Below, piece after piece: positions 17,153 through 64,000 of a stretch of 64,000 nt of DNA. A program made the position numbers and the translations under genes. The stretch comes from Daucus carota subsp. sativus (taxonomy: Eukaryota > Streptophyta > Magnoliopsida > Apiales > Apiaceae), in contig NC_030383.2 in assembly GCF_001625215.2 (NCBI RefSeq), positions 46,434,380 to 46,498,379 of the forward strand. Reading direction: 5' to 3'. The notes below the pieces were generated by a model. That model saw nothing but the letters and a program-made list of their open reading frames with translations. It did no database searches and was not told the DNA's origin. The first letter of the stretch is position 1; each line of letters begins with the position of its first letter.

Positions 17153-19101
17153 GGATGCTAGATTCAGCAGTCTATACAGTTCTAAACTGGAAAAAAGTTT
17201 AGCAACTCTATATATTTTCTTTTTTGGTACTTTTGTGTTGATTGTTGGAGCAAGCGAAAGCGTGCACATATATAGACCTCGTGGAGTGTTGATTGTTTTG
17301 AAAGAGAAAGCCCCCCAACCGTGCACCCTACAGGAGGAGAGGGACCAGAGACTTTAACACAAACGAAAAGGGCATTAAAAGAGGCCGTTAAAACTGACCA
17401 AAACTTATTGTTACTTTTACCGGCCATGCACACTGTCACAAACTTAGACATAGCCATTAGCCACCCAAAACCTAGCACAATTTATTGTCTTAGCACCGAC
17501 TCTAACTGCACAAGATTTGATAATACCTCCTGTAATTCATTTTATAAGTTCAAACACAAAATGTGCCGAGGGAATAATGTCCGCTCTTTTTTTTTACGGT
17601 GACAATGCAATAATTTGGATCCTCGTAAAGATTGATTAGAATACAATTTCCCTCTTTTCTTGCGACAGTGTCATTGATTCAAATCCTCAAAAAATTTGAT
17701 AGAAGCCTAATTTCCCTTCTTCCGTGACATGACAGTGTCATATATCAAATTCTAATAAAGAGCGATAGAAGCCTCATCTAATAATCCCGCCTTTCAACAT
17801 ATATATATATATATATATATATACATACGTGGTCAAGATTCTGCAACACATACAAAATCGCAGATAAGAGTGGTAGACAAAATTACCCGTTTGGACCACT
17901 CAAGTCTCTGTAATGCTACACCTACAAAATCTGATCACATTTATAATCAGAGGAGGCGCATTTCAAAGATAACATCCTCTTGTTATCGGGAGAAGAAAGT
18001 CAAAAGATACAGTTATCTATACATGTTGTACAAAGGGAAGCTCTGGTTTCAGCTTCACACAAATTAAGGAGGCACAGCCATATACACTCTGCAATTTTTA
18101 TGCACATTTCGCATTTATTTTTTGTCTGTGACTTTCTGAGAGAAAAAGAAGGGGGGCTATTTTTTGTTGGCCAAAATGAGGACTGAGGACTGAGGAGTAG
18201 ACATTAAGGACAAAGCAGCTGCGAGTCTTTATGATTTGGTTAACCAGAATTATAAAGCATTAAAAGAAGAATGTATAAGTGACAGAAGATCTAGGCAACA
18301 AGTTGGTGTAGTTGATGCACGATTCTATTTACACATACAACAAATATCATGCATGTAATCTTGGCTTGGCCCATTTTGATTTCCATTGGCGCAGCTCTGG
18401 AAAGGAAGAAATGATTTTAAGATAAGATGGTTTAGCTATACAGAGTATTGTAAGGTCACACTTCAATTCTGAGATTCAAATCCTCACTGTTGATTTATGA
18501 TTGGTTTAACTATAAAACAAAACAATTAGGTCGTGTGTTAAAGAATACTTTGTGTCCTGGGTCATGTGTTAAGGACTTATTCTTGTCATCTAATTTTTTG
18601 ATTATCGCTTACCCTACTAATGAGAACATATATTTATTTGTAGACATGAAAATCTAATTTTTTTGAAGAAAAAGAGAATTAATTGTTCTGAGTATTATTC
18701 TAAAAATTCGTGATTAATCTCTATTTCGTAACCCGTCAAATTAATTAAATTTTTGACTATTCAATTAATCATCTTATTAATCTTTATTCAATTTAAATAA
18801 TTTTATGATTAATCTTTATTCTTATTTTTCATCGATTAAAACCGATGCTCACATTTTACCACAGTGATTATGAGTTTTAAAACATCATAGTCACTAAAAA
18901 TGACAACACATGAGTTAACTACCAAGCAAGTACTGTACTGTTTGAAAGGGATCGAGTAACAAGAGTAAGAAACTTTGGGTCCTTTATGAGAAGTCAACAA
19001 GTACCTTGTCTTTGGGTTTCTTATGACTCATGTCTGAGTCCACTTGAAATGATTAGGAGTTAAAGTAGTGCTTAAGCTTCCGTAATCACATCAACCAAGT
19101 A
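17153..19101. other. CYP85A upstream region and gene-free DNA
   Basis: Contains the CYP85A promoter. A degenerate threefold tandem repeat of about 65 bp lies at 17597-17790, each unit holding a GACAGTGTCAT-like word and TTTCCCTC. An (AT)n run lies near 17803-17822. No gene is supported. Confidence 0.5.
17207..17216 (-). promoter_or_regulatory. Candidate TATA box of CYP85A
   Basis: AATATATAGA on the minus strand lies about 55-60 bp before the start codon. A second TATATA word at about 17266-17275 would give a longer leader. The choice between them is open. Confidence 0.35.
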
Positions 19102-19358
19102 CTCCCTCCGTCCCATTTTAGTTGTCACATTTCCTTTTTTGTTGGTCAAATTGACTAATTTTTGACCAAAGATTACAAGTCACTCTTTTATTATTTTAAA
19201 AAACTGAAAATTACATCTTAAAGTAGATTAAAAGTTATTTTCGGTGACATATTTTTTTTATTTTTTCAATTGATAAAATATTAATAAATTTCAGTCAAAC
19301 TTTGGTCAATTTGACCGGCACAAAACCAAATGTGACAACTAAAATGGGACGGAGGGAG
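19102..19358. mobile_element. Stowaway-type MITE with TA duplication
   Basis: 257 bp bounded by perfect inverted termini CTCCCTCCGTCCCATTTTAG and its complement, with TA on both sides (19100-19101 and 19359-19360). These are the hallmark ends of Stowaway elements mobilised by Tc1/mariner transposases. It is non-coding. A diverged copy lies at 55154-55410. Confidence 0.95.
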
Positions 19359-19360
19359 TA

Positions 19361-26195: not shown

Positions 26196-26988
26196 CTAGT
26201 TGTAAATGTCTTTAAAAACTGGCAGACGTTGATTATTAGGGCTCGGAGGTGGGCTCTCATCGTGATGGCGAATGATATTATACAAGTGTTCGAATTTTAC
26301 ATCAGCCTGTAGCTCTTCAGCTGAAGGTTGTATGTTATCGTTTTGTGGAAGCCAGCCCGTTAACATCCAGGGTTCCTCCAATACCTTAGCCCTCAGAACA
26401 ATAATTGCTGGTGCTAGGGCTTCCATCTCCAAAGCAGCTGCTGCTGCTCTTGTATTAGAAGAGTTCTGAACAGGTGCATTAGGCGTAGAAGGAATTGGCA
26501 AGTCCAAAAAGCAACTCTCTATCTCTTTTACAGTAATGTCCTTTATATCTGGTGCTGGCAGAAATTCTTTCATTGATAGAATATCTGCACTCACTGTAGG
26601 CTTAACGGGTATATTAGGCGCAGAGGAAACAGTCAAGTCCTGGGAGCCACTCTTTTTCTCCTCTTCAGTATTGTTATTAACGTTTGGTAGCTGGAACCGA
26701 GTTTTAAAATCAAATGGCGTGTTGCTCTGTGGATCCCCTGGATGGTTGTGAGGTTTGTCCCCCCCCCCCACCCAATTGTTTGACAACCTTGGCTCAATTT
26801 ATTTTCTTCATTTTTCCTCTTTGTTTGTGGTTGCGTCTGTTGTTATGATCCACCATCTCTGCTCTTAAAACAATCTTTGCATGGGCTTTCATCGTGAAAT
26901 TTGCAGTTGCTTCTTTTGTAATTGAAGTATTATGAGCATTGAAGGAACTCAAATCAGTTCTCTTTCGCTCTGTCTTGTTACTCTCCAT
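26196..26988 (-). pseudogene. Unknown repeat protein, unit A
   Basis: I do not recognise this family. Reading starts plausibly at ATG 26988 (MESNKTERKR, a basic N-terminus) and stops at TGA 26794-26796. A second long frame (26786-26196, no ATG at its start) carries FDFKTRFQLPNVNNNTEE, a QDLTVSSAPNIPVK module, then LPIPSTPNAPVQ, and ends FEHLYNIIRHHDESPPPSPN before TAA. Either an intron bridges the two frames or the gene is broken there. The junction holds an 11-base G run (coding strand, 26769-26759). The protein is acidic, low in Cys and without a membrane segment. Unit B (27043-27880) is a tandem homologue and 28920-29168 repeats its C-terminus. Confidence 0.5.
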
Positions 26989-27042
26989 TGTCCCTATTAA
27001 AAATAAAAGATCAGAACTCAACTTAAATGCAGAATAGGTGGT

Positions 27043-27880
27043 TTACAAGGTCATCATCACAGAAAATATTAGAACACATATATCCTCTTCAGCTGGTGGA
27101 ACATCTGCACTTGCAGAATGCTTAATAAGTACTTTAGGCACATATGTTTCAATCAATATATGAGAACATGGGGAGCTAATCTCTCTCTCTTTTCCAGTAT
27201 ATTTCTTAATGTATGGTAGAGAAAGATTCCCTTCAGCTGGCAGAATATCTGCAATTGTGTATTGCTCAACAGATATGTTAGGTGAATAGGTGCAAACAAG
27301 GCAGGCAACAGATATGTTAATGCGTATATTTTGGTATTTTCCTGTGTACCTGATGGTGGATGGTGGCAGAAACTCTTCAGCTGTCGAACTATCTGCAGTT
27401 GTGGAATACTTAACAGATGCATGAGGCGCGGAGGATATAGTCAAGTCCTGGAATCCGCCCACTATATCTTCTCCAAAGATGCCTTTTTTATGTGGTGGTC
27501 GCCCAAAATCAAATTCTTCTTCACTTGACAAATTATCTGAATTGCAGAATGCTTAACAAGAATGTTATGTTCAGAGGAAACAGTCAACTCTTTGGAGCCA
27601 CTCAATATCTTCTCTTCAGTACTATTGTTGAAGTTTGGTAGGCCTGGCCAAACTCTAAAATCAAACAGCGTGCCACTCTTCGGAGCCTATGTTGCTCTTG
27701 GATGGTTGAGAGGTGGTCCCCCCCCTTTTCATAATTCTCTGCTTTCGGTTTCTCATTTTTGCTGCCGTGTTTATGCTGCGTCTTCTCTTGCGATCCATTT
27801 TCTCTATCCCAAGACGTAAGAGTATTATTCACTAATTTACGAACAATTTGTGTATTAATGGGAATGAAATAAAGCATAAC
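27043..27880 (-). pseudogene. Unknown repeat protein, unit B
   Basis: Tandem homologue of unit A. From the minus strand it reads a basic N-terminal part (RKRRRS..MRNRKQRIMKRGG, 27820-27725), then LPNFNNSTEEKILSGS and KELTVSSEHN (27660-27570). After a frame change comes a frame (27531-27043) with three degenerate ~45-residue modules: QDLTISSAPHASVKY..AEEFLPP, SPNISVEQYTIADILPAEG and VPKVLIKHSASADVPPAEED. The modules share a P-x-(I/A)-x-V / A-D / A-E-E-x-L / Y-T-G-K pattern. An 8-base G run (27725-27718, coding strand) sits where unit A has its G run. Frame breaks suggest decay, though unseen introns could hide a working gene. Confidence 0.45.
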
Positions 27881-28270: not shown

Positions 28271-28919
28271 AATGTTTATGCAACTTCTGAGAAAATTGAA
28301 AACAGTCTGAAGAAAATAAGTAGCGTTTCAGTAGTATATCTCCGATCTACACAAATCCAAAAAACCCGAATGATAAAGATCATAAAAAGATAGAAGACGG
28401 AGATTGAAAATATCAAAATCTTTACGTGTGTAGTGTGCTAGTAGAGTTTCTGCAACTTCTTGCAAAAAACAAAAATGCAATTCATAAAAACAACAAAATT
28501 CTTTTTTTTTTTTGAAACCAAAAACAACAAAATTCTTGATTATCTTCTCAGTCTGGAAACGAAAATTGAGCAGAAAACGCCAAGAACTTAAAAGTTAATC
28601 GCAGAAAACTATATCCCAGATTTTATATCAAGATTATAAACGAAGAGTAGAGCTGTTGTTATTATTTTGAAGGATTATAATATAAAGTATGAATATTAAT
28701 TTTTTGTTTTCTGTGTTATTATTTCGGTTTCAAACATTTTAATAAAGGTGTACTTGACTTGTTTATTTTATGCAACGGTAAAAAATACATAATATGAATA
28801 TTAAATTTTTATTTTTTGTGTTATCATTTTGGCATTGGACATTTTAACAGTGGTACACTTTCTCTCTTTTCCTATATGACTATATCAATATTTGTGTTTG
28901 ACACTAGCTGTAACTTTTT
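28271..28919. other. Gene-free DNA inside the repeat-protein cluster
   Basis: AT-rich. Contains a short local duplication of AAAACAACAAAATTCTT around 28480-28540. No gene is supported. Confidence 0.4.
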
Positions 28920-29168
28920 ATTCATGCGAATATTTTCAAACACTAGTAAACGTCGATCATTGGGACTTGGAGGTGAGCACCCTTCAAGTTGGCGGATGAT
29001 GTTGTATAAGCACTCGAAAGTTACACTAGCTTCTAGCTCTTCCACCGAAAGGTTTATGTTATCATTTGCTGAATGGTTTATGTTTTCCATTTCTAATTGC
29101 CAGCTTGTTAAAGTGTAGGGTTGCACAGATATCATTGTCATTGTCGCAATAATTGCTGAGGCTTTCAT
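28920..29168 (-). pseudogene. Unknown repeat protein, C-terminal fragment (unit C)
   Basis: An 83-codon minus-strand stretch ends with SVEELEASVTFECLYNIIRQ and SPPSPNDRRLLVFENI. This aligns over its whole length with the C-terminus of unit A (AEELQADVKFEHLYNIIRHH, SPPPSPNNQRLPVFKDI). No N-terminal modules or start are visible, so it is a truncated paralogue. The conserved reading frame across two copies is the best evidence that this family once encoded protein. Confidence 0.55.
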
Positions 29169-29710
29169 CTCGAAGAATGCAGCTGCTTCTATTACTTATA
29201 TATTAATGAAAGATATTACTTATTTATTAGTGAAAGATTTAAATGTTCAAAAAAATAAACTGGATTGTACCTCAACTGCCAATACAACTGGTGGAGAAAT
29301 AAATATTATACTAAAAAAATTGACTGTTTTGTTTCTTGGTCGTTTAACATATAGAATTTAGAAATTCACAAAGCTGAAAATGAAATCAAAGATATTCCAA
29401 GCGATCTAAATTGTACCAACTTTCCAGAAAAAATAACATCACAATTTACCTTATCACATACTTAAAAGTCATTATAGACCAGTGTTCATAAACTGAGATT
29501 GGGCACTCCAGCTATCGAAATGTTGGATACCACTTGTAGACAATGCCAAAAATGTATACCCCTAGTGGATGAACAATCTTTGATTGTGAAATGTGAGCTC
29601 TTGTCATAATTATCCCCGGCTTAGATATGACGATGCTTTCCAAATCCCCAAAAATACCAATAAAATCATCCTCAACAAATACAACATCGAATAAATTCAA
29701 ACATAACTAA
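29169..29710. other. Gene-free DNA
   Basis: No gene or strong repeat seen. Ends in the left duplication of the next element. Confidence 0.45.
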
Positions 29711-29719
29711 ATAAAAATA

Positions 29720-31275
29720 GAGTGATTGACACTTTGCACCCCTTATGTTTAGGCGCTTTTTCGATTTGGTCTCGAACAATTTTTTTTGGCAATATGCACC
29801 CAAAAGTTTGAAAAGCGCTACGCTTTGCACCCTTTTGACCACTCTCCGTTAATTGACCGTTAAAGTTAACAGATTTCAGGTTTTCACTTTGCACCCCACA
29901 GTTTTAATTATTTTTCATGAGTATTTTGAAATATTTTTTTTCCAAAAAAAATATTTTCCTCAAGATCGTCGATGGCCTAGTGAAAGGCCTCGTCCTCCCT
30001 TCCCATGATCAATGCAGATACATGTAAGATAAACATTCTAGTTATACAGTACATAAGACTACTACATGACTGGTAGCCAACAGATTAAATGATTTTCCTC
30101 TGCAGAACTAAGTTAAACAAAGCCATCAAATTTAGCATACTTGAGAAACAAATCGCACCATATACATGATAAATTAACTTTCATCTAGGAATCACCATTA
30201 GCAAATTTGTTCATAGAGTTTATGTCTGCTGCTGCATTAAGGATGATTCAGAAAAATACCCTGCTGCTGTAAAATACCCTTGCAACGTCTTTTTTCTTCT
30301 CAACTTCTACACTGTTGTTAAGGTTTTGGATCACATTACCTTGGTTGTCAGTTTCCGGCTTGTTGAGATCCATTGGGAGTTTCATTTTCACCAGGGACTC
30401 AGAGAATTGCTGCATGCTCCTCATTTACATGTCAACAATTTGTTGCTGCATAGCGGTTTGTTCAACTTCCAGGTTTATATTCCCAAGCGGAGCTGACAGT
30501 GCCTGAGTAACAAATTTGGCATTGCTGCTTTCTTGAACATTGTCTTTGGAACTAGGTATATTCGCGTCTAGGATTTCAAGTCCTTTTCTTGATGTTGCAG
30601 TGTCTAGACAAGCCGTAGGCCTTAGTGCCTCTTTAGTGATCGACTGATTTGGAGAATTCAGCAGACCAACAAGAGGATGACTCTTCTTCTCCATAGAGTC
30701 ACCAGAGTTTCGGTCATCACTCAAGCTTGTCATCGTAGAACTCAAAAAACCTGAATTCTGAACACTGCCGTTGGGAGATAGAGATACATACCCGTTGTCA
30801 TCAGATGAGTTAGCAGTCATCTCGTAGTCATCTACAGGTTGATGTGGTGCACCAAGGCGAAGAAATGAACCAGAATTAACCAGATCATGTCTCGACACAG
30901 AACCATGTCCTTCTAAATTGAAATACTGAGTCACCATCTGCTGATTCTCTCTAACTACATTGATGTCTGGAAATTCTATCCTCGAGTACTCAACTGGATC
31001 CAGCACCACTTATAGAATATAAGAATTTTGAGGAAAATATTTTTTTTTTGAAAAAAAAAATATTTCAAAAATACTCATGAAAAAAAATTAAAACTATGGG
31101 GTGCAAAATGAAAACCTAAAATCTGTTAACTTTAACGGTCAATTAACAGAGAGTGGTCAAAAGGGTGCAAACCGAAGCGCTTTTCAAACTTTAGAGTGCA
31201 TACTGCCAAAAAAAATTGTTTGAGACCAAATCGAAAAAGCGCCTAAACATAAGGGGTGCAAAGCGTCAATCACTC
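29720..31275. mobile_element. Mutator element carrying a gene fragment (Pack-MULE)
   Basis: 1,556 bp bounded by long inverted repeats of about 245 bp (29720-~29965 and ~31030-31275), both starting GAGTGATTGAC and containing CTTTGCACCCCTTATG. It is flanked by identical 9-bp ATAAAAATA (29711-29719 and 31276-31284). Long termini and a 9-bp target fit Mutator. The interior carries no transposase but holds a foreign coding fragment (30248-31009). Such gene-carrying elements are known as Pack-MULEs. Confidence 0.92.
30248..31009 (-). pseudogene. Captured coding fragment inside the Mutator element
   Basis: The minus strand reads one frame from about 31009 to TGA at 30248-30250, about 254 codons, broken only by a TAA at 30425-30427 between VDM and MRSMQQFSES. 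The protein is Ser/Asn/Asp-rich and hydrophilic: FNLEGHGSVSRHDLVNSGSF, GYVSLSPNGSVQNSGFLSS, AMQQQIVDM, MKLPMDLNKPETDN, ending VFYSSRVFF. It looks like the C-terminal part of a host regulatory or nuclear protein. I do not recognise the parent. There is no ATG at the 5' edge (GTG), consistent with capture of internal exon sequence. Confidence 0.6.
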
Positions 31276-31397
31276 ATAAAAATATAATGAAACACTCCAA
31301 AAAAAAGACAAAACAACCCTTCTAAGAGGAGCGACACGAAACATCTAAAAGATTGGTTTTTATTGAAACAAAATCAAAGAAAATGAAAGAAAATAAA

Positions 31398-31597
31398 GGA
31401 AAATGCTAGGGACCCTAAATATTTATCCCAAAAATTTTTCCCAAATGACGTGGCAAAATCTCATTGGTTGCATTCATTCCCATAATAATGAGGCCCTCTG
31501 CAGATTCATCAATCACCCAATCAAATTTCGCCACTTGTTAGCCACGTCATTTGGTAACAAATTTTGGGAAAAAAATTTGGGGTCTCTAGCATTGCCC
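31398..31597. mobile_element. Mutator-type MITE with 9-bp duplication
   Basis: 200 bp. Inverted ends GGAAAATGCTAGGGACC and GGTCTCTAGCATTGCCC enclose further complementary zones (ATGACGTGGC / GCCACGTCAT). It is flanked by identical GAAAATAAA at 31389-31397 and 31598-31606. The ATGCTA core resembles the ends of the 20488-20668 element. Confidence 0.88.
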
Positions 31598-32533: not shown

Positions 32534-33726
32534 CATAATATTTTTACGGCATTATATAAGCTCCAACCAAACAACTTTGTTTGAACTAGGAAATAAGCCA
32601 GAAATAGATTATGACTTGTTAATTGGAAAGACAGAGATTGATTTAAAATTATAAATAAGTTATAAATTGAATAAAAACTAAAAGTTAATTTGATATATTT
32701 TTCTCATTGATTTGATTTTTTCTATATTTTTTTTATAAAAGTTCGATTCATATAGTTTCACTACAGGTACGGTCAATCTGTCGTTACTATTTTTCGACAG
32801 GATTAGTCTATTATAACTTGACGAGATAACCTTATCGACCACAAATTTTAAATAATATATTTATAAATATATAGTACAATTGAATATTTCTCCATTTATA
32901 GAAGAATTTGTTTTAAATTTAGAGTAGATGCATGCAATCATCATCGTGGACATCCATTTGATTCTTAATGTAATACACATGCATGCATTGCCGTTAAATG
33001 CAAATAGACGACTTTGCAAGAACTGGTAATCGCACCACAAGGTCCACAAACATACATTAATGGGAAATGCTAAGAAGTTCGTAGCTGTGGTATGGGTAAG
33101 TATGGCGATCACGTCGTAAGCTAATGAATCAAGTGCACGCACAAGAGAGAGCAAATAGTAAAGACAGCAGTTGAGCGAATTGATCATTTATTTGCTCTAG
33201 AATCTCACGCGCATGCCGCGCGATCACCGTCTATAAACTCCAAGATTTAATTTACATTATAATATGATTTTAAGTTTTTTGTAACTATAAGAAAAAACTG
33301 GCTCCAAATCTTCCATGTCCTTGAAATAATGCCCAACAGAGTTGAAAAAAATGATCTCAAATACTAGTTAGAGACGCTGATAATGTAGCATTTTCAATTT
33401 TGGGATGAAAACTAGATTGGGTAGCATTTTACTGTTTTAAGCCCATATAAAACGCTACACGTTTAGGTTAACCTAATTAGACGCGCGCCGTATAAAGTTT
33501 TCAATTAAGTTAACCTAATTATACCCTACACGGCGTTCTGTTAGGGATAACCTAATAGAACGCTACATTACTAAATGATATTTGGGGTCATTTTCCTGCA
33601 TTCTCATATTTAGGACATTAATGATGAATCTATAGGTACTCATCAGGGAAGCTAGAATTTATTTTGAAAAATGTTAAATAACCAAAAATAATAATAATAG
33701 TAATTTTTATTATCATCAGATTCGTG
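32534..33726. other. CYP96A upstream region
   Basis: AT-rich flank with no gene. Around 33360-33570 there are repeated GTTAACCTAATTA and AACGCTACA words, perhaps remains of a transposon, directly before the CYP96A promoter. Confidence 0.45.
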
Positions 33727-33734
33727 TATAAATA
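33727..33734 (+). promoter_or_regulatory. TATA box of CYP96A
   Basis: TATAAATA about 117 bp before the chosen start. It overlaps the upstream end of the long open frame, so codons before about 33760 are probably not transcribed. This supports the internal ATG at 33844. Confidence 0.6.
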
Positions 33735-33843
33735 TAACATAGCCTCCGGTATGCATTCTGATCCATATACTCACCATTGTCTAGATATATCAAAGATTTT
33801 AGCAATCACCTCTGGTCTATTCACTACGCCCATAGAATCATAT

Positions 33844-35376
33844 ATGGAAGCCTTACGCTTTGAATACTTTGAAATAGTATTAGCCATTTTAAGCTTTTGG
33901 TACATAAGGAGACTTCGCTTCGACGATGGTCTTCCATGGAACTGGCCCCTGGTGGGAATGATGCCATGGATTTTATCCAAGGTGAATCGAGTTCACGACA
34001 TGTGCACCAAAATCCTGAATCAAGAAGGTGGCACTTTCCTACTCAAAGGCCCTTGGTTTACTAACATGGACATGTTATTCACAGTCGATCCGGCCAACGT
34101 GCGTTACGTGCTTAATGATGGCTATGCCAATTTCCATAAAGGCCATGAGTTCAAGGAGATTTTCGATGTGCTTGGAGATGGAATTGTGAATGCTGAATTT
34201 GAGTTGTGGAAGATCCAGAGGAAGCATTCTCAGTTCCTGTTTAGTCTTCCTCAATTTAGGAAGTTCTTGATGAGGATCAGCACGGAAAAGGTCGAAATTG
34301 GGCTCATGACAGTCCTTGATCATGTTTCTCAACGAGGTCAAGTGGTGGACATGCAAGATTTGTTTCAAAGGCTTACCTTTGATACAACTTGCATGTTTGT
34401 CACAGGCTATGACCCGGGCTGCCTCGACGTTAAACTCCATGAAGTTCCGTTCTCAAAAGCCATGGATCAGACTGAAGAAGTTATATTCACGCGTCATCTC
34501 ATGCCTCAGACATTGTGGAAGCTGATGAGATGGCTAAACGTTGGATCGGAGAAGAAAATGAGCCAGGCAAAGAAAATCATCGACGATGAACTATATACTT
34601 ATATAAAGAGGAAACGAGAAGAAGTGAGCAGTAGAGGTGGCAAATTGGACGATGGTGCAGAAGGAAATGGAGCTGATCTCTTAACATTGTACATAACTGA
34701 AGAGGACAAGTCACTGGGATTAGAAAACAACGACGAGTTCATGAAAGATATCGTGCTGAACCACATTCTTGCGGGAAGAGACACAACGAGCTCAGCTCTG
34801 ACATGGTTTCTTTGGCTTGTCATTACGCATCCACAAGTAGAATCCAAAATTCGAGCTGAACTCAAAGCAGTGACCCCACCAAACGAAGCTGAAAAAAGGA
34901 AATTTTTCAGTGATGAAGAGCTAGGGCAACTTCCTTATTTGCATGGTGCAATTTCAGAAGCCTTAAGGCTGTACCCTCCAGTTCCATTCCAGCACAAGGA
35001 ACCTATCAAAGCGGACGTTCTCCCCACAGGTCATCGGGTTCACCCGAAACTGAGGGTGATGTTCTCCTTGTATGCAATGGGAAGAATGGCCACTGTGTGG
35101 GGAGAAGACTGCCTGGAATTCAAACCAGAGAGATGGATTTCCAGAGACGGAAGCATCAAGCATGTACCTGCTTATAAGTTTACAACGTTCAGTGCTGGGC
35201 CAAGAGCATGCCTTGGAAAAAAAGTAGCTTATACTCAAATGAAAGCGGTGGCTGCTGCATTGATATATAATTACAACTTTAAGATGGTGGAAGGACACAA
35301 AGTGATTCCTAATCTTTCTATGATCCTGTTAATGACACATGGATTGAAAGTTACGATTACTGATAGATGGTCCTAA
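33844..35376 (+). CDS. CYP96A: Cytochrome P450 CYP96A, mid-chain alkane hydroxylase-like
   Basis: CYP96A members oxidise long aliphatic chains. Arabidopsis CYP96A15 (MAH1) converts wax alkanes to secondary alcohols and ketones at the endoplasmic reticulum. Single exon, 510 residues from ATG 33844, the usual family length. The open frame extends 40 codons further up but overlaps the TATA box, so I chose this start, which begins MEALRFEYFEIVLAILSFWY (membrane anchor). NWPLVGMMPW follows, then I-helix AGRDTTSSAL (310-319), K-helix EALR, PERW, and haem loop [12 protein letters not shown] with ligand Cys456. There is no lesion. Its 3' third and 3' flank are duplicated at 37762-38470. The substrate is inferred from family only. 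Confidence 0.93.
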   Translation: MEALRFEYFEIVLAILSFWYIRRLRFDDGLPWNWPLVGMMPWILSKVNRVHDMCTKILNQEGGTFLLKGPWFTNMDMLFTVDPANVRYVLNDGYANFHKGHEFKEIFDVLGDGIVNAEFELWKIQRKHSQFLFSLPQFRKFLMRISTEKVEIGLMTVLDHVSQRGQVVDMQDLFQRLTFDTTCMFVTGYDPGCLDVKLHEVPFSKAMDQTEEVIFTRHLMPQTLWKLMRWLNVGSEKKMSQAKKIIDDELYTYIKRKREEVSSRGGKLDDGAEGNGADLLTLYITEEDKSLGLENNDEFMKDIVLNHILAGRDTTSSALTWFLWLVITHPQVESKIRAELKAVTPPNEAEKRKFFSDEELGQLPYLHGAISEALRLYPPVPFQHKEPIKADVLPTGHRVHPKLRVMFSLYAMGRMATVWGEDCLEFKPERWISRDGSIKHVPAYKFTTFSAGPRACLGKKVAYTQMKAVAAALIYNYNFKMVEGHKVIPNLSMILLMTHGLKVTITDRWS

Positions 35377-37440: not shown

Positions 37441-37761
37441 ACTAAAAAAACAGGACAAAACCGACCGGCATGAAAAAAATGTCGGAATAAAACCGACGGG
37501 CGGAAATCGGTCGGTTTTAAGTTTTAACAAGAACGACGTCATTCTGCGTTGCTGGTAAGACTTCGACTTATTTAAACTGGCCAAAACGAGTTTGGTCGGT
37601 TTTGGAGCTGACTTGTCAAGATCATAACCGACCAACAAATCGGTCGGTTAAGTATTTGGGTATTTTTAATCAGTTTTTCAATTATTGGTTCAACAGAACG
37701 ATGTCGTTTTCTGTCTAAAGACAAAACCGACTGGCCGTCGGTCGGCTTTGTGTTGAGGGAC
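37441..37761. mobile_element. Possible CACTA-like fragment
   Basis: At least eight AACCGACCG or CGGTCGGTT words occur in both orientations within 320 bp (for example near 37457, 37507, 37593, 37625, 37639 and 37737). Arrays like this are common in subterminal zones of plant CACTA elements. No CACTA terminus or 3-bp duplication was found. It abuts the broken 5' edge of the CYP96A pseudogene. Confidence 0.35.
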
Positions 37762-38240
37762 AAAATTCGAGCTGAACTCAAAGCATTTACCCCACCAAAT
37801 GAAGCTGAAAAATGGAAATTTTTTAGTGATGAAGAGCTAGGGCACTGCCTTATTTGCATGGTGCAATTTCAGAAGCCTTAAGGCTGTACCTTCCAGTTCC
37901 ATTTCAACACAAGGAACCTATCAAAGCGAACGTTCTCCCCACAGGTCATCGGCTTCACCGAAACTGAGGGTGATCTTTTCCTTGTATGCGATGGGAAGAA
38001 TGGCTACTGTATGGGGAAAAGACTCCCTGGAATTCAAACGAGATCGAGAGATGGATTTCCAGAGAAGGAACTATTAAGCATGTACCTGCTTATAAGTTTA
38101 CAACGTTTAGTGCCGGGCCAAGGGCATGCAAAAGTGGCTTATACTCAAATGAAAGGACACAAAGTAGTTCCTAATCTTTCTATGATCCTGTTAATGACAC
38201 ATGGAATGAAGGTTAGGGTAACTGATAGATGGTCCTAATG
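37762..38240 (+). pseudogene. CYP96A pseudogene, 3' part only
   Basis: Starts abruptly at the codons for KIRAELKA (matching 34847 of the intact gene) and runs to the same TDRWS end. It lacks the first two thirds, including the I-helix. Small deletions break the frame (for example near 37850 and 37965). The stretch from CLGKK to just before EGHK is reduced to a few residues, so the haem Cys is lost. Similarity continues into the 3' flank to about 38470. It cannot encode a P450. Confidence 0.92.
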
Positions 38241-38732
38241 TCTTTTAAAAATACTATGAATTTGCTCATTATGTGCTGCGTGGACGCTGAGAGTGTCATG
38301 TGTGTGTAGTCAGAATGTAATGTTTTTCAATATCAAGGGCTCTTCTATATTTAGAAATATTATTAATATGTGTTCTTGAAAAGCTGTTATGGCTGCAAGT
38401 ATATTTAGATATTTCGGTTTTTCTATAAAAGATTATGCTTCATAAGCTTCTTGTTTTGTAGTTGGCGAATGTGTAAATTTGTCCCAAGTTATCAATGAAA
38501 CAAAACAGATACTTAAGAGAGAGTACGACAAGATTGCCTACCCAAAGTTATGAATAACTTATCTAAAGCATCTTGCCCCCGGAGTTATCCACAGACCACA
38601 AGATCTCAACAAATCAAATTCTTGTTAAAATCGAGCAATTCAGAATGTGTTAAATTTTCAAAAAAATAAAAATGGTGGACAATTACTCACTAAAAATAAG
38701 GTAACCTGAATACCTGACTATTAAATTTAATA
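38241..38732. other. 3' flank of the CYP96A pseudogene
   Basis: Up to about 38470 this is homologous to the flank after the intact CYP96A (about 35377-35610). The remainder holds no gene. Confidence 0.55.
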
Positions 38733-55018: not shown

Positions 55019-55153
55019 TTTGTCGCCCTCCGCCGCTGCTAATACCTAAACCTCTTTCGATTTTCCGCTATTTGCTTTTATTTTGGATCACCTACTCATA
55101 TGCTATCTTATTTGCCAACAAACGAAAAATCTTATTTTGAAAAATATATTATA

Positions 55154-55410
55154 CTCCCTCCGTCTTTTTTTAATTATCACATTTCTATTTTATTTGTCAA
55201 ATTCACTAATTTTTTAACAAAAATTATAAGCCACTTTTTTATTATTTTAAAAAACTGAAAATTACATCTTGAAGTAGATTAAAAGTTATTTCCGGTGATA
55301 TATTTTTGCTATTTTATCAATTGATAAAATATTAATAAATTATAGTCAAATTTTTGATCAATTTGACGGGCACAAAATGAAATGTGACAACTAAAAAGGG
55401 ACAGAAGGAG
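55154..55410. mobile_element. Stowaway MITE, diverged copy of the 19102 element
   Basis: 257 bp, same length and order as 19102-19358 (for example TTTTTTATTATTTTAAAAAA, AAGTAGATTAAAAGTTATTT, TCAATTGATAAAATATTAAT). The left end CTCCCTCCGTC keeps TA; the right end is mutated (GGGACAGAAGGAG) and its TA is lost. It lies just upstream of the zinc-protein gene. Confidence 0.9.
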
Positions 55411-56394
55411 TTTAATGACTTAAAGAAAAGCACAACATTACTCTAAAGGTAGGTGACAAATCTTGACAATTAATCATTGATTAATTTCTTTTCTGTAGTC
55501 AGTTAAATTTTTGATTATTTAATTAATCATTCAATTAGTTCCCAATCAATTTAACTAATTTTTGATCAATAATTGTCTGTATCTTTATCGATTAAGTTCG
55601 ATTCTCAAATTTTATAATACCGGATACATGTCACAATTAAGATAGAGTATATTATTGAAGTGTTTCTTTTTCTTTATTTCAATAAAATAAGGACATATTT
55701 TGAAATTTTAATATATTTAGTTATATTACATTTATATGTAATATTTTAGAATTAAACTTTTAATATATGTTTAATATTATTAAATTATACAAACAAATAC
55801 TTAATTTCAAAAAGTACGTAAATATTTCTCATAAATAATTTATTTTGTGACCATTATGGAAAATAATCTGCTCTTCATTAACTCAATATAGCAAATAAAC
55901 TTATAAATTTTAGATAGAATTAGAGGTGGAAACCCTTTTTGAAAAGAAATAATTAATTCAATGATGAAAATTCTTGTGACATCTAGAAAACAATTGAGTC
56001 GAACAAATATAAAACGGATCATATCGTGTATGATCGCAATCTCGTATAAATCATTATCACCGAATCAAACTCTTGAAAAAGTGGCAGATTTAACATCTTG
56101 AACATTGAATCACACCAAAACAGATAAAAAACACACCAAACTTCTACAAAGAGAGATAAACAAAATCCTAAATAAATTGGAAACAAAACTCGCCTCAAAA
56201 TTTTTATCAATTAATCAATCTAGAAAGATAGAAATTCTTGTGACAAAAAAAGATATAAATTCTTAGAAAAAGTATTAATGAAAAAATAAGAATAAAACAA
56301 GAAAATAATTGATGAGGCTTTTCGTCGATAAAAATTGACGAAAATTCCAAGAACAATTGGAAAAAGGTTGAGAGATTTTTTTAGGATGGCAAAA
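55411..56394. other. Gene-free AT-rich DNA
   Basis: No gene or clear repeat; short frames only. Confidence 0.5.
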
Positions 56395-63300: not shown

Positions 63301-63612
63301 TGCATATGTTCTTATACAATCCGCTACCTCACTCACAAAAACCGTACCCGCGATCTCGTTCTTGCGACCCACCAAGTCTAAGACACCATTATCAAACCAC
63401 CGCATGCATTGATTATGTAGCAAACAAGCTTATCTCTCTAGCTTAGGCCAACACATATTAATTGTCTATGCATTCTTGTTTGTGCTGAAATATTTGTCAT
63501 CCTTTCACTTAAGTTCATTTTTGGCTCCATGCGTCACTTTCTCCTATATCATATTTTTTAGTCTTGTACATCCGAGAACTAATCTTTCACATATTTACAC
63601 AAAATTCATATA

Positions 63613-64000
63613 ACACTGGGGGGCAACCAAGCACCAATTTTTTCACAAAATTTTTCTCTTTCCCGAGTGTTGTCCGCAACCAACACTGGGGGGCAACCAA
63701 GAACCAATTTTTTCACAAAATTTTTCTCTTTCCCGAGTGTTGTCCGCAACCAACACTTGGGGGCAACCAAGAACCAATTTTTTCACAAAATTTTTCTCTT
63801 TCCCGAGTGTTGTCCACAACCAACACTGGGGGGCAACCAAGAACCAATTTTTTCACAAAAATTTTTCTCTTTCCCGAGTGTTGTCCGCAACCAACACTGG
63901 GGGGCAACCAAGAACCAATTTTTTCACAAAATTTTTCTCTTTCCCGAGTGTTGTCCGCAACCAACACTGGGGGGCAACCAAGAACCAATTTTTTCACAAA
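63613..64000. repeat. 70-bp tandem repeat running off the window
   Basis: ACACTGGGG-type starts at 63613, 63683, 63753, 63823, 63894 and 63964 give a 70-bp period (one unit is 71). Units are nearly identical: GGGGGGCAACCAAG, CCAATTTTTTCACAAAATTT, CTCTTTCCCGAGTGTTG, TCCGCAACCAACACT. AGTGTTG and CAACACT can pair as a hairpin stem within each unit. Confidence 0.95.

Follow-up and report, generated by a model that had tools for sequence, protein, structure and literature searches.

Structure of the element

The window analyzed here is a 64,000-nucleotide stretch of the carrot (Daucus carota) genome, C3:46434380-46498379, and positions without a contig name refer to it. It includes a 1,556-bp element at 29720-31275, which corresponds to C3:46464099-46465654, with the following features.

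29711-29719, no strand: left 9-bp target-site duplication, ATAAAAATA (letters compared)
29720-29966, plus strand: left terminal inverted repeat (blastn and alignment; end matched genome-wide)
29963-31011, minus strand: captured host DNA, 94% identical to C1:31300560-31301610 (DNA match to the parent locus)
29963-29965, no strand: 3-bp microhomology AGA at the left capture junction (junction comparison)
29963-30247, minus strand: captured 3' flank past the parent's stop, 285 bp (alignment with the parent)
30248-30424, minus strand: final 58 codons of the captured frame and native stop TGA (frame and parent alignment)
30425-30427, minus strand: TAA private to the window copy among four copies (copy alignment)
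30428-31009, minus strand: 194 open codons, C-terminal part of a C2-domain gene (frame and parent alignment)
31009-31011, no strand: 3-bp microhomology (AAG on the minus strand) at the right capture junction (junction comparison)
31012-31024, minus strand: family-own subterminal sequence from the capture junction to the right repeat (also in other members, e.g., L017 and L018)
31025-31275, minus strand: right terminal inverted repeat (blastn and alignment)
31276-31284, no strand: right 9-bp target-site duplication, ATAAAAATA (letters compared)

An original prediction, made from the letters of the window, described this element as a Mutator-like element (MULE) carrying a piece of a host gene, with long inverted ends, a perfect 9-bp duplication and no transposase. 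The inverted ends measure 247 bp (left) and 251 bp (right), and 233 of 247 ungapped pairs are identical, with 4 gap columns. When compared by blastn, the two ends match at 92.4% over 251 columns, and the two-parameter distance between them is 0.059. The duplication ATAAAAATA is indeed perfect on both sides, and 9 bp is the typical target-site duplication size of MULEs. Equal 9-mers at the spacing of the element were found at 2 of 62,426 window positions, with the ATAAAAATA pair counted among the two.

The coding frame lies on the minus strand, where 194 open codons are followed by the TAA, 58 further codons and a TGA (30248-30250). This agrees with the predicted foreign frame broken by one stop, which proves to be a host frame that ends at the native TGA of the gene. 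An open stretch of 194 codons was reached by 1 of 2000 Markov-1 sequences modeled on the same element inside. When frames of the window were used to train a codon-usage score, the cargo frame came first of six by a negligible margin (-0.004, compared to -0.010 for the best of 500 noncoding draws); this score does not separate the cargo frame and contributes nothing. The GC content of the coding part (0.43) is above that of its surroundings (0.31-0.34), yet not high. No transposase domain was detected by Pfam in the two frames of the element that were scanned. Furthermore, the inside is accounted for by a host-gene match (element positions 244-1292), and thus the element carries no transposase, as first proposed.

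A host C2-domain gene matches the cargo

The genome that includes the window (441,086,747 bases, 11 contigs) was searched with the element DNA, and 40 of 613 first-look candidates were scored. Among these, we recovered the element itself, two near-full copies, one internally deleted copy, and an inside-only match of 1,049 bp (query 244-1292, 94%) at C1:31300560-31301610. The latter locus has an uninterrupted single frame of 440 codons (C1:31300850-31302172, minus strand), in which a C2 domain was identified (3.6e-9; domain scan of 391 codons on L010). The last 50 codons of the frame, scanned apart, gave no domain match. No family ends were found in 20 kb around this gene, where the sole match consists of 29 AT-rich bases of the inner repeat. 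The original prediction left the host gene unnamed and suggested searching the genome for an intact parent. The gene is now recognized as a C2-domain gene, and the parent has an intact frame without Mutator ends. It is located on contig C1, and the window copy is on C3.

The cargo corresponds to the last 253 codons of the parent (about 250 had been predicted) together with its native stop and 285 bp of the 3' flank, and does not include the C2 domain. The captured part of the parent frame is intronless. A search of the genome with the parent protein uncovered two diverged paralogues on C4 (41% and 39% identical), and scoring of all 14 candidates gave no other close relative outside the loaded elements. 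The open frames of both paralogues terminate in VFYGSRAFF, as does that of the parent. Therefore, the captured piece belongs to the C2 gene family and contains a genuine gene end rather than transposon coding sequence.

Other assignments for the cargo were considered and rejected. A Pfam match to Arm was below threshold (0.18). When the 194-codon frame was compared with PDB sequences, 34 matched up to an E value of 10, and the best of these by whole-sequence score were designed Armadillo chains (6.4e-07), although in most of the 34 no single stretch passed. We discounted the Armadillo matches as probable repeat-summed scores, given that the cargo derives from a C2-domain protein and that conservation is poor in the part of this protein where the stretch falls. 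Likewise, the sole match of the 58-codon frame was to ferritin, with an E value of about 1. Peptide strings from the cargo frame had no match in a literature string search, a result that we do not extend to absence from print, and the plasmid, genome_contigs and viral_contigs collections yielded no relative.

Capture junctions

Both limits of the cargo can be read by comparing family, parent and window sequences. At the left junction, these are CTCAAGAC (family), CCAGATCG (parent) and CTCAAGATCG (window element), and the shared AGA is followed by C in the copy at C3:5.16 Mb and by T in the window element. At the right junction, read on the minus strand, the corresponding sequences are TATAAGAG, CTGAAGTG and TATAAGTG. 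Each junction has 3 bp in common, and the chance of at least 3 bp is 0.0675 per junction under random placement. In part of a study of animal Pack-TIR elements (PMC8277862), breakpoint microhomology with a median of 2 bp is reported and is explained by gap filling with template switching. The 3-bp microhomologies observed here fit such a model without proving it, as this length is not rare.

Other loaded copies

Four loci carry the cargo between the same ends: the window, C3:5.16 Mb, C1:6.24 Mb and C5:41.2 Mb. This count derives from the 40 of 613 candidates that were scored, and therefore more copies may exist. The flanks, which the original prediction had singled out for comparison, differ among the loaded copies. 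The C1:6.24 Mb copy has its own perfect 9-bp duplication on both sides (TATTTTTTA), unlike the ATAAAAATA of the window. In the C3:5.16 Mb copy, 5 bp are missing from one end, and the C5:41.2 Mb copy has an internal deletion and is without a 9-bp duplication (3 of 9 bases differ). Because only the window and C1:6.24 Mb copies have perfect and distinct duplications, transposition is demonstrated for two of the four loci. The junctions are common to all four wherever they are undeleted, and these shared junctions, together with the shared ends and cargo, point to a single capture that was followed by movement.

The C3:5.16 Mb and C5:41.2 Mb copies differ at 5 of 859 sites, and the remaining copy pairs are separated by 2.9-3.6%. 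The distance from the parent to the copies is 6.2-6.6%. The frame is open across 253 codons in the C3:5.16 Mb and C5:41.2 Mb copies. In the C1:6.24 Mb copy, it is disrupted by frameshifts (2-bp and 1-bp deletions) and the native stop is gone.

An element family with many insides

The terminal 23-mer of the element occurs with at most one mismatch at 330 places in the genome, compared to none for a reversed control. We examined 45 paired members, of which 29 came from the best matches of the element DNA search and 16 from the first places in the list of exact-match end pairs. Four unpaired arms (L021/L044, L039, L043 and L045) and L023, which covers less of the same element as L052, were left out before counting. 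The 45 members are not equivalent to 45 independent insertions, since L050 and L051 share a duplication, as do L059 and L060, and these are probably copied segments. The 9-bp duplications are perfect in 32 of the 45 paired members examined and have at most one mismatch in 37.

The insides of the 45 members form 27 different groups, which may include old family sequence besides captured genes. Pfam was run on the longest frame in 22 of the groups, all but those of L042, L055, L058, L065 and L067, and in 16 of the 22 there was no match above the cut-off, including the C2 and NB-ARC insides that are known through their parents. Matches above the cut-off include F-box (L018), PPR (L049 and L063), acyltransferase (L041 and L062) and peroxidase (L054). 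In total, 7 of the 27 insides have been traced to host genes.

One inside is common to L014, L015 and L016, of which L028 is a deleted relative, and a further match to it lies at C5:4247516. In two separate blocks, this inside matches a gene cluster at C3:2.2-2.33 Mb. One gene of the cluster was examined (89% and 77%); it is of the NB-ARC type, and no family ends were found in 8 kb. In L014 (cargo 447-1498), the two NB-ARC blocks are about 0.8 kb apart in the gene, and thus the piece was joined, or its middle was lost, during or after capture.

Another member, L056 (C1:27368422-27370894, 2,473 bp), has the same terminal 23-mers as the family and includes a 179-codon frame with part of the MULE transposase domain PF10551 (1.7e-07; 32.0 bits versus a cut-off of 27.6; profile positions 1-75 of 99). 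This partial domain ties the family ends to the Mutator group and suggests a possible source of transposase, although no active transposase was found. L064 shares part of the inside of L056, which is possibly a decayed autonomous member. Separately, three members with a shared inside and near-identical flanking duplication (L059-L061, C2:37668158-37855592) occupy one 190-kb stretch, and further family end matches extend up to C2:37948164. This region resembles a local duplication that occurred after insertion.

Substitution pattern and identity of the donor

Among the four copies, 25 changes alter the protein sequence (24 replacements and 1 stop) and 14 are silent. These counts do not differ from neutral ratios of altering to silent changes of 2.39-2.96 (P 0.09-0.24), and the difference is marginal when a ratio of 3.47, which assumes no transition bias, is used (P 0.04). 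The cargo is decaying among the copies, as is evident from the stop in the window copy, the frameshifts in the C1:6.24 Mb copy and the near-neutral substitutions.

The 30 fixed coding differences, which set the parent apart from every one of the four copies, have another pattern, with 13 altering and 17 silent, which departs from neutrality (P 0.0017 or less). Under an equal split, with half of the fixed silent changes assigned to a drifting element, the chance of seeing no more than 13 altering changes is P 0.01-0.04. The fixed differences are thus more conservative than an equal split predicts, which leaves room for a donor that was a paralogue since lost or an allele that had diverged. We consider it a minority reading, though one to be taken seriously, that the present parent allele was not the donor and that the cargo came instead from such an allele or paralogue or from a haplotype gained by introgression. 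Against this, placing 70% of the changes on the constrained parent branch gives P 0.05-0.19, and placing 90% there gives 0.21-0.65. Moreover, a Fisher test gives no significant difference between the fixed ratio and the within-copy ratio (P 0.095), and the 14 candidates scored with the parent protein held no second close relative without family ends.

Perhaps one chance in a few should be given to the broader proposal that the cargo derives from a form of the C2 gene now absent from this genome (through any of these three routes) or was once kept by selection inside the element. If true, this would explain why the parent and the copies are separated by changes no less conservative than in a functioning gene, and, in the case of a lost form, the element would keep a record of gene variation that is gone from the host. 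We note the conservative pattern of the fixed differences without offering it as a finding.

Origin and fate of the loaded element

The evidence leaves little doubt that the window element is a non-autonomous MULE, a Pack-MULE in the strict sense, that was loaded from the host C2-domain gene and moved as a unit, and whose cargo has since drifted. In the proposed sequence of events, an ancestor of the family would have taken about 1.05 kb from the 3' half of the gene, replacing its own inside, likely by template switching at the 3-bp microhomologies during gap repair. The loaded element would then have been mobile as one unit, presumably through a family transposase acting in trans, to reach the four loci at which it is now found. 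After this spread, the cargo drifted toward a pseudogene, with the window copy gaining its stop and the C1:6.24 Mb copy its frameshifts.

The original prediction named new chimeric genes and small RNAs directed at the parent as possible outcomes of such a capture. The cargo is most likely without protein function at present, and we do not favor the window element as a putative protein source. It is rather improbable that the loaded element is functional, with transcripts that give rise to small RNAs, or to a C-terminal peptide lacking the C2 domain, and so act back on the parent gene. The window element contains 1,536 21-mers, of which 273 occur unchanged at the parent locus, so that any small RNAs it produced could match the parent in principle. 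Part of a review (PMC13317346) reports that captured sequences serve as siRNA reservoirs in maize, and the two copies that remain open in frame also accord with function. The disrupted frames of the window and C1:6.24 Mb copies, and the near-neutral substitutions within copies, argue against it. An RNA-mediated effect of the element on its parent is possible.

Finally, a plain segmental duplication or retrocopy of the C2 gene that merely sits between inverted repeats is very hard to sustain and is rejected on the shared junctions, because the match halts on both sides at family-own subterminal sequence, has the same limits at four loci and has 9-bp duplications outside the inverted ends, even though the intronless parent segment means that intron loss cannot be judged.

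Relation to known elements

Pack-MULEs, in the partial descriptions used here, are MULEs with captured gene fragments and are best known from rice. The window element resembles them, to the extent that those descriptions go, in its long inverted ends, 9-bp duplications and absence of an internal transposase. It also carries a non-transposon gene fragment whose parent is unlinked to Mutator ends, the same loaded element is present at several loci, and one family has many insides. Within the same descriptions, there is no structural difference, and the particulars here are that the fragment is the 3' part of a gene with its stop and 3' flank and that the cargo GC of 0.43 is above the surroundings though not high.

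Two other classes offer further comparisons. Animal Pack-TIR elements, as covered in part of PMC8277862, share breakpoint microhomology on capture and include some multicopy cases, but in that study 160 elements (56.9%) are less than 15 kb from their parent, whereas here the parent is on another contig (C1 versus C3). Pack-CACTA elements, according to a portion of PMC8903248, are likewise non-autonomous, gene capturing and bounded by inverted ends. However, their duplication is 5 nt, compared to 9 bp here, and a member of the present family has a MULE-type transposase domain.

Pack-MULEs have long been known as such, and the present element adds a new, well-documented example of this process. 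The case is complete in that the element and its parent have been assembled together with the capture junctions, the other loaded copies, a relative that carries part of a transposase domain, and a family whose members have many different insides. Such families provide natural material for examining the mechanism of capture and any influence of captured pieces on their parent genes.

Other features in the window

Several additional features were observed in the window. To the left of the element, the frames at 26466-27725 and 28875-29195 are repeated, with a common motif (FEHLYNII or FECLYNII, then PPPSPN or SPPSPN), and are perhaps duplicated host-gene pieces. Just past its right end, a small inverted-repeat element (31402-31593) has 56-bp arms that are 86% alike, with no clear duplication seen. 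An open frame of 564 codons at 33682-35373 is cytochrome P450-like by eye, and a second, partial copy (76% identical DNA) lies downstream at 37761-38480. Two small palindromic elements (19100-19360 and 55152-55411) have ends TACTCCCTCCGTCCC and are 87% alike; we take these to be Stowaway-like. A tandem repeat of about 70 bp, with units about 98% alike, begins at 63612 and reaches the window end at 64000.
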